Positions 41,374 to 46,731 of a stretch of DNA of 55,319 nucleotides are shown here, one piece after another. Both the position numbers and the translations under genes were made by a program. Location of the stretch: the NCBI GenBank assembly GCA_024710585.1, contig JANJUM010000146.1, positions 1 through 55,319 of the forward strand. Direction: 5' to 3'. The stretch's first letter is position 1; every line of letters begins with the position of its first letter. This stretch comes from Desulforhopalus sp. (GTDB lineage: Bacteria; Desulfobacterota; Desulfobulbia; Desulfobulbales; Desulfocapsaceae). The notes under the pieces were generated by a model. It saw only the letters and a program-made list of their open reading frames with translations. It searched no databases and had not been told where the DNA came from.

Positions 41374-42843
<1,470 letters not shown>

Positions 42844-42864
42844 CAGACGGCACCGGCCGCATCC

Positions 42865-44169
42865 TCACTCGCCGGGTATCGGTGGGGATGCAGCCCGGTC
42901 TTCGGGGCGACCGGTCGCTGCGACCATGTCACGGCGGCGGCCGGTGGCGATGTGGCGCAGGATGTCCATGACCACCGGCAGGTTGATGAAGTCCTCGGTG
43001 CCGATCTTGCGCAGCACCACATCGCTTGCGGCGACCACCGTCGCCGTACGCCGCTTCTCGTCGGCGAAGTAGGCCATCTCGCCGAAGATCGACCCCTCCT
43101 CGATCACCGAAAGCAGTTCCCCCCTGCCATTGACGGTATGCGCCGTGCCGCTGTCGAGGTAGTAGATGCCGTCGGGGACGCTGCCGATGGTGATGATGTC
43201 CTCCCCCTTCTTGCGCCACTCCAGCTTGAAATACCGCTCCCAGGAAGTATCGACCACCAGGGCGTGGTAGAAATCCGGGTTCATCGCCCGCAGCAGCTGC
43301 CGCGACAGGTGGAAGAGGCGCTCGCCCATGGAGTCGCGCCTCTTTTCCATCAGCTTCATGCCAGTGACGACGAAGTCGGTATCGGGCTGGGGGGTCTCGC
43401 GGATATACTCGAGAATGCGTTCGGTGGCCAGGTCGTCGCGGCCGGTGAGCTGGCGAAAGACCTGCTGGGCGCACTGCAGCTCTTCGCGCACCCGCGGGAA
43501 ATCGGGGGTGATGCCGGTCAGCTGGTTGCCGCCGAAATACTCCATGGCCTGGTTTTTCATGGCGATGAAGGTGCGCAGCCCGGCCTGGTCGACCTCCCGC
43601 GGGCAGCGGTGCAGGCCCGGCCGGTAGATGGTGTAGAGGTTCATCGGGTGCTGCACGCTCTTCAGGCTGACCTTGGCGATGTTGACCAGGTCGGGAGCGA
43701 AGGAGGGGCAGTTCCTCGCCACTTCACGATCCATGAGGAAGCTGGTGCCGAAGTATCCGCACAGTTCCTCGAAGCGGTTGGCGACGGAGAAGCTTCCCCC
43801 GAACTTGAGGGCGCGGTTGCCGAGCCTGGCCTCGACGATGCGGCCGAGGAGCAGGCCCATGCGCGTCGGGATGAGGGCCCCGGAGCTGATCGCCTCCCCC
43901 GCCTGCACCACCGCTCGCAGAGCCCTGGTGCAGACCTCGACATTGTCGCCGCTCGGCCGCTTGTCGAAGACGGCCACGCAGCCATCCCCGGCGGAGGGCT
44001 CGAGCTCCATCGGAAAGCTCTCCCGCCGGCAGATGAGGCTCTCGATCTCGTGGTGGTAACCGACGAGGAAGTCGCGAATTTCCGCCGGCGTCATCCCCAG
44101 GGACTTGTGGGAGTAGTTGACCATGTCGGTCATGAGGATGACCACCTCCCGTTCTTCCCCCTGATCCAT
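42865..44169 (-). CDS. Class III nucleotide-cyclase-like domain plus cyclic-nucleotide-binding domain
   Basis: 434 residues. Residues about 6-190 form a class III cyclase homology domain with both metal Asp positions (Asp15 in ILMTDMVNYS, Asp62 in SAGDGCVAVF). In GGSFSVANRFEEL the transition-state Asn is Ser128, while the Arg is kept. The middle (about 190-300) is helical. Residues about 305-420 are a cNMP-binding domain with phosphate cassette FGEMAYFADEKRRTATV. It may be a cyclase with altered catalysis or a sensor. I prefer ATG 44169 (GGGGG upstream) over 44175. It follows a small membrane-peptide gene and radA on the same strand. Confidence 0.85.
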   Translation of the reverse strand: MDQGEEREVVILMTDMVNYSHKSLGMTPAEIRDFLVGYHHEIESLICRRESFPMELEPSAGDGCVAVFDKRPSGDNVEVCTRALRAVVQAGEAISSGALIPTRMGLLLGRIVEARLGNRALKFGGSFSVANRFEELCGYFGTSFLMDREVARNCPSFAPDLVNIAKVSLKSVQHPMNLYTIYRPGLHRCPREVDQAGLRTFIAMKNQAMEYFGGNQLTGITPDFPRVREELQCAQQVFRQLTGRDDLATERILEYIRETPQPDTDFVVTGMKLMEKRRDSMGERLFHLSRQLLRAMNPDFYHALVVDTSWERYFKLEWRKKGEDIITIGSVPDGIYYLDSGTAHTVNGRGELLSVIEEGSIFGEMAYFADEKRRTATVVAASDVVLRKIGTEDFINLPVVMDILRHIATGRRRDMVAATGRPEDRAASPPIPGE

Positions 44170-44186
44170 CGCCATCCCCCTGCCCC

Positions 44187-44300
44187 TCAGCCGATGAGGG
44201 CGATGAAGGTCACCATGGCCAGGACGGCGATGAAAAAGACCGCCACCTTGATATTGACGGAATGGTCCTCGTGGTGCTCGTGATGGCTGTCATGGCTCAT
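44187..44300 (-). CDS. 37-residue His-rich single-helix membrane peptide
   Basis: Not recognised. The product begins MSHDSHHEHHEDHSVN, with seven His among the first 13 residues. A lysine and one strongly hydrophobic helix follow (VAVFFIAVLAMVTFIALIG), running to the C-terminus. It has a very good ribosome site, AAAGGAG, seven bases before the ATG. It sits in the gap between radA (44 bases) and the cyclase gene (17 bases), all on the same strand. A coding role is supported by the ribosome site, the sharp soluble/hydrophobic split and the placement. The His cluster could bind metal; this is inference. Confidence 0.65.
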   Translation of the reverse strand: MSHDSHHEHHEDHSVNIKVAVFFIAVLAMVTFIALIG

Positions 44301-44344
44301 GGAAGCTCCTTTGATGAAGTGTGGGGCGGCAGGGCCGCCCGGGA

Positions 44345-45712
44345 TCAGGGAAAGAGGCGGCGCAGCAGCTCGGGGATGCCGGCCACGGGCAATAGCTCGA
44401 TATCCGGCGTCCAGGTGAGGCGGTCGCGGTTGCCGGCCGGGAGGACAAAGCGGGTGAAGCCCAGGCGCTGCGCCTCGCGGATGCGCACGTCCACCTGCCC
44501 GACGGCGCGCACCTCACCGGCCAGGCCGACCTCGCCACAGACCACGGTGGTGGGGGGGATGGGCCTTTCGAGCAGGCTCGAGGCCAGGGCGCAGATCATG
44601 CCAAGGTCGAGGGCCGGCTCCTCGATGCGGATGCCGCCGGCGATATTGAGAAAGATATCGTGGCCGTAGAGGTCGAGCCCGCCTTTTTTCTCGAGTACGG
44701 CGCAGAGCAGCGACAACCGCTGCTGGTCGGCGCCGATGGCGGTGCGCCGCGCCGTGCCCAGGTTGGTGGGGCTGACCAGGGCCTGCACCTCGACGAGGAT
44801 CGGCCTGGTGCCCTCAACGCTGGGCAGCACCACCGACCCCGGCTCGTTGAGGGGGCGCTCGGCGAGGAAGATCTCCGAGGGGTTGCGCACCTGCACCAGG
44901 CCCTCGCCCTTCATCTCGAACACGCCGATCTCGTTGGTCGAGCCGAAGCGATTCTTGACAGTGCGCAGGATGCGGAAGGCGTGGCTGCGATCGCCCTCGA
45001 AGTAGAGCACGGTGTCGACCATGTGCTCCAGCACCTTGGGCCCGGCGATGGCGCCGTCCTTGGTGACATGGCCGACGAGAACCACCGGGATGCCCTCCTT
45101 CTTGGCCATGCCGAGGAGGCGATAGGCCGACTCGCGCACCTGGCTGACCGAGCCGGGAGTCGAGGGGAGGTCGCCGCAGACCAGGGTCTGGATGGAGTCC
45201 ACCGCCACCAGGCTCGGCCGCATGGCGCAGGCCATGGCGATGATATGGGCGACCTCGTTCTCGGTGGCGAGAAACTGCTGCTCGCGGATGGCGCCGAGGC
45301 GCCGGGCGCGCATCTTGATCTGCCCCGCCGATTCCTCTCCGGAGATATAGAGGACCTTCCGCTCCTCGCCGGCCACCGCGGCGAGGAGGTGCAGGAGCAG
45401 CGTCGACTTGCCGATGCCGGGCTCGCCGCCGATGAGCACCACCGAGCCGGGGACGATGCCCCCGCCGAGGACGCGGTCGAGCTCTTCCAGGCCGGTGGCC
45501 AGACGAACCTCGTCGCCATCGGGAGCCAGGGCCAGCGGCACCGGAGCCCCGCCGCCGCCGAGGGCGACGGATGAGGCCGGGACCACCCGCTCTTCACGCA
45601 GGCTGTCCCATTCGCCGCAGCCGGGGCAGCGCCCCAGCCATTTGCCACTCTCGTAGCCGCAGTTGTGGCAGACAAACACCGACCGCCGCTGCTTTTTGCC
45701 CAGTTCCGCCAT
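44345..45712 (-). CDS. radA: DNA repair protein RadA
   Basis: RecA-like ATPase that promotes branch migration of recombination intermediates. 455 residues, normal length. An N-terminal zinc finger (CHNCGYES...CPGCGEW), Walker A GGEPGIGKSTLL, the RadA-specific KNRFGSTNE motif and a C-terminal Lon-like domain (LFAV-type region GGIRIEEPALDL, and SLLERPIPPTTVVCGEVGL) are present. It is first in a minus-strand group followed by the His-rich peptide and the cyclase-like gene. A 7-bp hairpin GGGCGGC/GCCGCCC at 44324-44340 lies just past the stop but lacks a T-run. Confidence 0.97.
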   Translation of the reverse strand: MAELGKKQRRSVFVCHNCGYESGKWLGRCPGCGEWDSLREERVVPASSVALGGGGAPVPLALAPDGDEVRLATGLEELDRVLGGGIVPGSVVLIGGEPGIGKSTLLLHLLAAVAGEERKVLYISGEESAGQIKMRARRLGAIREQQFLATENEVAHIIAMACAMRPSLVAVDSIQTLVCGDLPSTPGSVSQVRESAYRLLGMAKKEGIPVVLVGHVTKDGAIAGPKVLEHMVDTVLYFEGDRSHAFRILRTVKNRFGSTNEIGVFEMKGEGLVQVRNPSEIFLAERPLNEPGSVVLPSVEGTRPILVEVQALVSPTNLGTARRTAIGADQQRLSLLCAVLEKKGGLDLYGHDIFLNIAGGIRIEEPALDLGMICALASSLLERPIPPTTVVCGEVGLAGEVRAVGQVDVRIREAQRLGFTRFVLPAGNRDRLTWTPDIELLPVAGIPELLRRLFP

Positions 45713-45751
45713 AGATGTGCCGCAGGTTCCGGCTGCCGGAATCCGCTTCCC

Positions 45752-45779
45752 TTTACAGAGAGGAAAAAACGCCTATACT
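45752..45779 (+). promoter_or_regulatory. Promoter of the EI24-CYTH gene pair
   Basis: TTTACA (45752-45757), 16-base spacer, TATACT (45774-45779). It leaves an unusually long leader of about 140 bases before the start at 45928; no riboswitch fold was recognised in it. Confidence 0.6.
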
Positions 45780-45927
45780 CAAGAGGTGTCTGCCGCGACG
45801 GGCCCATGCCGCCGCACGCCTTGGCCTCGCCGGCCGACCCGCCGCGGGATAAGGCCGTCGCCACCCCGACCGGCCACGGCGCGCATGGTGCGGTCGGCCG
45901 ACCCACCCCGTTATACCAGGAGAACAA

Positions 45928-46731
45928 ATGAAAAGGCAACCGATTGTCAGCGCCACCCACCGCTACCGCCCCCTGTCGCGGGCGGTGGCGCTCATCGTGC
46001 ACAGCAGGGCCCTGCTGTTGCAGAGCTTCCTCCTCTTCGTGGCGACCGTCGCCCTCACCTGGCTGGGCTACTCGCTGGCGGTGAACGCCATCGACAACGC
46101 CACCGCCGGCTTCACCGCCGTCGCCCCGGCCACCACGGGCATCTGGGGCACCATCAAACATTCCGCCTGGGTGGCCGGCAGCTGGCTCCTGCAACTCATC
46201 TCACGGCTGGTGGCCTTCTACCTCTCCTTTCTCCTCGCCTACACCCTGACCTCGCCAGGCTACTCCCTGCTCAGCGCCACCGCCGAGCGTCTCGAGGCCG
46301 GCGAGCGCTTCGAGGCCGACGCCGCGCTGACCCTGAGCGGCATCCTCCGCGATATCGGCGAAGGCCTGAAAATCGCCCTCTTCGGTATCGCCGTCACCAT
46401 TGTCGCCATCATGGTCAACTTCCTGCCAGTCATCGGCCAGGTGCTTGCGGTTCTTCTCTATACCTTTTATTCGACGCTGATGTTCATCGACTACCCCACT
46501 TCACGCCGCCGCTGGTCCCTGGGGGAAAAACTCGACTGGCTGCGCTGCCACCGCCTTCTCGCCCTGCGCCTCGGCCTGATACCGACTCTGCTGGGCATGA
46601 TCCCGCTGCTCAACATCTTCGCGGTCGCCCTGCTCTTCCCGGTGCTGACCGTCTATGCCACCGTCAATTTCACCGCGACGCAGCTCGCCGAAAACGCCGA
46701 CGCCACCAGGGGAGGGGGCCAGCATGGGTAA
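45928..46731 (+). CDS. EI24/CysZ-family membrane protein
   Basis: 267-residue inner-membrane protein with about four to six hydrophobic segments (LLLQSFLLFVATVALTWLGY, SRLVAFYLSFLLAYTL, IVAIMVNFLPVIGQVLAVLL, LIPTLLGMIPLLNIFAVALL). The conserved EI24/CysZ core is seen as FIDYPTSRRRWSLGEKLDWL. CysZ imports sulfate in some bacteria, but many EI24 proteins have no assigned role. The start ATG follows CAGGAGAACAA. Its last codons overlap the CYTH gene by 8 bases, so the two are coupled. Confidence 0.85.
   Translation: MKRQPIVSATHRYRPLSRAVALIVHSRALLLQSFLLFVATVALTWLGYSLAVNAIDNATAGFTAVAPATTGIWGTIKHSAWVAGSWLLQLISRLVAFYLSFLLAYTLTSPGYSLLSATAERLEAGERFEADAALTLSGILRDIGEGLKIALFGIAVTIVAIMVNFLPVIGQVLAVLLYTFYSTLMFIDYPTSRRRWSLGEKLDWLRCHRLLALRLGLIPTLLGMIPLLNIFAVALLFPVLTVYATVNFTATQLAENADATRGGGQHG

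Follow-up and report, generated by a model that had tools for sequence, protein, structure and literature searches.

Does the short reading frame in the gap between radA and a cyclase-like gene of Desulforhopalus sp. represent a genuine gene, and if so, what might its product do? Genes of such short length are easily missed by annotation and by function studies. The frame occupies positions 44187..44300 on the minus strand of the window, i.e., the whole 55,319-nt stretch of DNA that was analyzed, with its ATG at 44300 and its stop codon at 44189-44187; the plus-strand reading of the same interval is not the coding frame. Its translation, MSHDSHHEHHEDHSVNIKVAVFFIAVLAMVTFIALIG, is a 37-residue His-rich membrane protein with a single helix.

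A short gene under purifying selection

The initial annotation had described a 37-residue frame with a good ribosome site that fits between two same-strand genes, and the sequence bears this out. The ribosome-binding site AAAGGAG (44306..44312, minus strand) lies five nt before the ATG, and 69 of 76 upstream sequences, a set in which six loci occur twice, have an SD core. The upstream neighbor radA (44345..45712, minus strand) ends 44 nt before the small gene, and the gene for a class III cyclase-like/cNMP-binding protein (42865..44175, minus strand) starts 11 nt after it; both genes are given as context only. Taken alone, a frame in this gap is weak evidence, because about 5% of random gaps contain one: an ATG frame of at least 36 aa arose by chance in a fraction of 0.054 of 5000 random gaps having the same length (169 nt) and dinucleotide make-up as the real one.

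The frame was then compared with the same gap in related genomes, the check proposed with the initial annotation. A strong profile match to the small protein was obtained in 13 of the 15 genomes of the genus, and in all 13 carriers the gene sits between radA and the cyclase-like gene. The two exceptions are a genome whose radA contig stops 77 nt past radA (G014) and one that is 56% complete (G002). radA itself is present in 57 of 57 relatives, and a reading of 30 radA loci revealed the same small frame behind radA not only in the genus but also in certain other genera; in others it is missing there. Among 13 genus sequences (the window and 12 others), the median dN/dS was 0.14 (range 0.05 to 0.48, for the 47 unsaturated of 78 pairs), and pN was lower than pS in 78 of 78 pairs. 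Third codon positions were the most divergent (0.52 versus 0.22 and 0.12, from residue 11 onward). The 37-residue frame is a genuine protein-coding gene under purifying selection; the profile matches and low dN/dS values rule out a chance frame.

In a scan of positions 42700-46000, the only promoter-like site was on the plus strand, and terminator-like sites numbered two, with 1.2 expected; one of the latter falls within the small gene (44260..44243) and was given no weight. Patterns for sigma-54, FNR, CRP, Fur, and Rex occurred upstream in at most 1 of 83 sequences, with no excess, and sigma-70-like matches were no clearer than in shuffles. The 7-mers enriched upstream probably reflect shared ancestry. 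As the small gene lies close behind radA, co-transcription of the two is likely at the radA locus, with no functional link to radA or to the cyclase implied. In one genome, radA itself was split into three overlapping pieces, one of them with a TAG (G028:C1:3740346-3741690), probably through assembly frameshifts.

Distribution within one order

A profile search detected the small protein in 125 of 257 sampled genomes of the window's order. The profile was built from a 57-row alignment and matched 129 of the 257 genomes at an E value of ≤0.01, from which four were dropped because their matches were weak or lay within long frames (G038, G205, G076, and G122). Two of these, G076 and G122, were the only rows from family f12 among the matches, and the G038 stretch (L165) gave no frame. 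The carriers comprise 76 of the 93 genomes of the window's own family (f1), together with 21 genomes of f5, 11 of f3, 9 of f4, 3 each of f6 and f8, and 1 each of f10 and f11. Credible matches numbered 0 among the 73 genomes of f12 and 0 among the 379 genomes outside the order (395 drawn over the phylum), two hits outside the order having been dropped because they covered the helix part only, within frames of 259 and 649 aa (E values of 0.003 and 0.008). The small protein is lineage specific, occurring in several families of a single order. It is absent from some near-complete relatives, such as G161 (98% complete), G147, and G025, and such real absences indicate that it is dispensable. There is one copy per genome in all matching genomes but two; G204 and G218, with two copies each, are the sole such cases in the order at an E value of ≤0.01.

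A His/acid-rich head and a helix with a conserved face

The protein begins with a His/acid-rich head, residues 1 to 13 (44262..44300, minus strand), which contains six His residues and the pair E11-D12. The initial annotation was right about the His cluster, and its count of seven His in the first 13 residues is corrected here to six. This composition is a family trait: at least three His lie within the first 16 residues in 78 of 83 distinct members, the mean in this segment is 3.9, and only three His in total occur beyond residue 20 across the 83 members. Weighted conservation was calculated from 82 of the 83 distinct members (L161 was left out; effective number, 34). It reached 94% for H6 and 87% for each of E11 and D12, with the other head His at 70% or less. 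To judge from composition, the variable His positions in the head fit loose metal binding, without proving any.

As had been described, a single hydrophobic helix runs to the C terminus (residues 19 to 37; 44190..44246, minus strand; Kyte-Doolittle mean of 2.86), and a strongly hydrophobic stretch is present in 83 of 83 distinct members. The helix bears a conserved stripe whose family consensus is V19, G/A20, F23, V26, L/I30, I/L33, and A/G34, with V30, I33, and A34 in the window protein. The periodicity of conservation along the helix (82 sequences) peaks at 100 degrees per residue, and a peak as strong was seen in 13 of 5000 shuffles in a test that treats alignment columns as exchangeable. 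As 100 degrees is the angle of an alpha-helix, one face of the helix is conserved. This face, which a plain anchor would not need, is the chief new clue to mechanism and points to a specific contact with another helix. Self-association would account for it equally well. AlphaFold models of seven sequences placed a helix at residues 9 to 36, with a mean pLDDT of 95 to 97 at residues 21 to 37 and of 58 at residues 1 to 10, so that the membrane part is predicted with confidence and the head is loose. K18, at the helix start, is the only K/R in the window protein.

Comparison with known families and small subunits

The initial annotation recognized no known relative, and our family searches agree with it: neither Pfam nor NCBIfam yielded a convincing family. 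For 57 members, the best Pfam match was to DUF6480 (E value of 0.0051) and the best NCBIfam match was to KdpF (one member, E value of 0.0075); the window protein itself had no match in NCBIfam. DUF6480 (PF20088) was weakly matched by 10 of the 57 members; the window protein scored 12.3 bits against a gathering score of 25, and the likeness is likely a helix or low-complexity resemblance. A PDB profile search gave a best E value of 0.038, with hits that cover the start of unrelated proteins, and a literature search covering the starts of abstracts found nothing on this small-protein family. Thus, the small protein is a real, lineage-restricted membrane microprotein that, for the two libraries searched, has no family, and it is conserved in several families of the order without matching a family model in Pfam or NCBIfam.

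Known single-helix subunits were considered through the distribution of their large partners. CydX is a single-helix protein, the small subunit of cytochrome bd oxidase. It is described as a 37-aa protein in Escherichia coli that belongs to a membrane complex (PMC4325964). The window protein has the same length as E. coli CydX, but no CydX model was among the families listed at an E value of ≤1 for the 57 members in Pfam and NCBIfam, libraries that may contain none. A CydA profile matched 234 of the 257 genomes of the order, and CydA does not follow the small protein: in f12, 49 of 73 genomes have CydA at an E value of <1e-100 and none credibly has the small protein, and at least six carriers have no CydA match, including G054 (95% complete), G199 (99% complete), G060, G061, G154, and G166. 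A CydX identity was rejected on these grounds.

Some members of the aa3 oxidase subunit IV/COX4_pro group combine a His-rich N terminus with a single helix. The 15 Pfam families listed for the 57 members at an E value of ≤1 do not include this group, and 49 of 125 carriers had COX1 over the cut-off, as did 42 of 132 non-carriers (Fisher P of 0.24); with no co-occurrence with COX1, cytochrome oxidase subunit IV was rejected as well. KdpF, another tiny single-helix subunit, was matched by one of the 57 members (E value of 0.0075). In a hand-picked, nonrandom panel of 40 carriers and 25 non-carriers, all from genomes at least 90% complete, KdpA exceeded the cut-off in 11 of 40 carriers (one of them, G053, by a weak partial match) versus 3 of 25 non-carriers. 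The remaining 29 panel carriers had no KdpA over the cut-off, unlike what a Kdp small subunit would show, and this identity was also rejected. NqrA showed no pattern in this panel (16 of 40 carriers versus 7 of 25 non-carriers over the cut-off), and NuoH (65 of 65 panel genomes) and H+-PPase (0 of 65) were both uninformative. A larger partner was not found among COX1, CydA, KdpA, and NqrA, the profiles of which do not follow the small protein.

Changing gene neighborhoods and the downstream cyclase

Beyond the radA locus, the surroundings of the small gene change from family to family. Neighbor names were assigned by eye from sequences, except for the cNMP domain, which was a Pfam match. In genera g5, g7, and g10 of f1, the small gene is near an RNase HI-like gene and a gene for a radical-SAM fusion; in genus g22 of f5 its neighbor is mtnA-like, and a dGTPase-like gene is another neighbor type. 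In an f10 genome (G044), a weak member (E value of 5e-5) lies on the strand opposite to radA, and its end abuts the radA 3′ end. As neighbors differ between families, the small gene is not bound to one operon.

Several loci have further by-eye assignments. The protein of about 1050 aa encoded upstream of the small gene at L069, L084, L085, L087, and L090 (g5 and g7) and at L076 and L091 (g10) appears to have a radical SAM domain and a SAM methyltransferase fused together with a C-terminal part rich in Cys. In other f5 genomes (L156, L157, L158, L162, and L166), two genes precede the small gene, one for a PHP-domain helicase-like protein of about 1085 aa and a short one for a CxxC thioredoxin-like protein. 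Three loci, two in f3 and one in f8 (L099, L101, and L102), have TatA/B- and TatC-like genes no more than a few genes away from it.

The downstream protein in the window has 436 aa. Its cNMP-binding domain was identified by Pfam (E value of 6e-15), its class III cyclase domain is weakly recognizable (PDB 1yk9, residues 10 to 137, E value of 0.0029), and Pfam gave no cyclase family for it at an E value of ≤10. A second cyclase/cNMP copy, 45% identical, is encoded in the same genome (G000:C217:2004-3230). At an E value of ≤1e-30, the cyclase protein was found in 46 of the 257 genomes of the order, all in f1. The small protein accompanies it in 43 genomes, and three have the cyclase without the small protein (G029, G171, and G196).

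The initial annotation had proposed that the small protein may be a metal-sensing or membrane-tethering partner of this downstream protein, a proposal in line with their adjacency in 13 of 13 genus carriers and at other f1 loci, and with a co-occurrence above chance in f1 (43/33/3/14; Fisher P of 0.006, with relatedness ignored and no tree correction). It fails across the order, however. Of the 125 carriers, 82 lack the cyclase at this threshold, the cyclase stands alone in the three genomes just named, and the two genes are apart in eight of the genomes that have both. In seven of these, five from g5 (G018, G034, G180, G182, and G187) plus G016 and G140, they are on different contigs, which in draft assemblies could still be close together; in G018, G034, and G180, the 14-kb stretches around the small gene contain no cyclase of this family within five genes to either side. 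In the eighth, G169, a single contig carries both, about 1.75 Mb apart. With neither co-inheritance nor linkage holding across the order, a dedicated cyclase partnership was rejected as a general rule, and it is quite improbable as the function of the small protein.

Proposed function and alternatives

We tentatively favor, as the single most plausible reading, a lineage-specific membrane microprotein whose helix face docks on a larger membrane protein and whose metal-binding-type head tunes that partner. Because the helix ends at the C terminus, insertion into the membrane would occur after translation. The head would probably be cytoplasmic, given that the only K/R, K18, is at the helix start. 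The conserved face, from V19 to A/G34, may then dock on a larger membrane protein whose gene lies elsewhere, in the manner of CydX-type small subunits. The head resembles a metal-binding tail in composition and might stabilize or tune the partner; a transition metal is a possible trigger. Since the helix offers a testable interface, one tagged copy could reveal a new membrane-complex subunit. A narrower version, an order-specific regulatory subunit that would use its His/acid head to sense a transition metal and its helix face to adjust an energy-conserving membrane complex, for instance, one of sulfur or quinone redox, is unlikely.

The helix and the head would also suit a membrane-tethered metal buffer or metallochaperone that needs no larger partner: the helix would self-associate, and the paired His-rich heads would bind Ni, Zn, Cu, or Co and pass it on. 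The recurrence of three or more His near the N terminus and the conservation of E11 and D12 speak for this possibility, and the conserved face carries small residues (G/A20 and A/G34) of a kind favorable to helix packing. Against it, the number and spacing of the His residues vary, a Fur-type pattern, the sole metal regulator pattern tried, occurs in 0 of 83 upstream sequences, and the lack of a constant neighbor means that there is no constant metal transporter either; we consider it possible but somewhat unlikely. A hydrophobic toxin of a type I toxin-antitoxin pair, or a similar stress peptide, would match in size and single helix, and 1 of 57 members matches the PepG1 model (E value of 0.019). 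To our knowledge, though, a conserved His/acid head is no feature of type I toxins, and a gene that is single copy except in G204 and G218, widespread in relatives, and under purifying selection makes such a role very unlikely. Lastly, a short, His-rich frame behind a good ribosome site recalls a His-codon leader peptide for attenuation, an idea that retains almost no probability: no his operon was recognized by eye among the neighbor proteins examined, the downstream gene in the window being cyclase-like, the window copy never has more than two His in a row, and the helix is conserved at the protein level.
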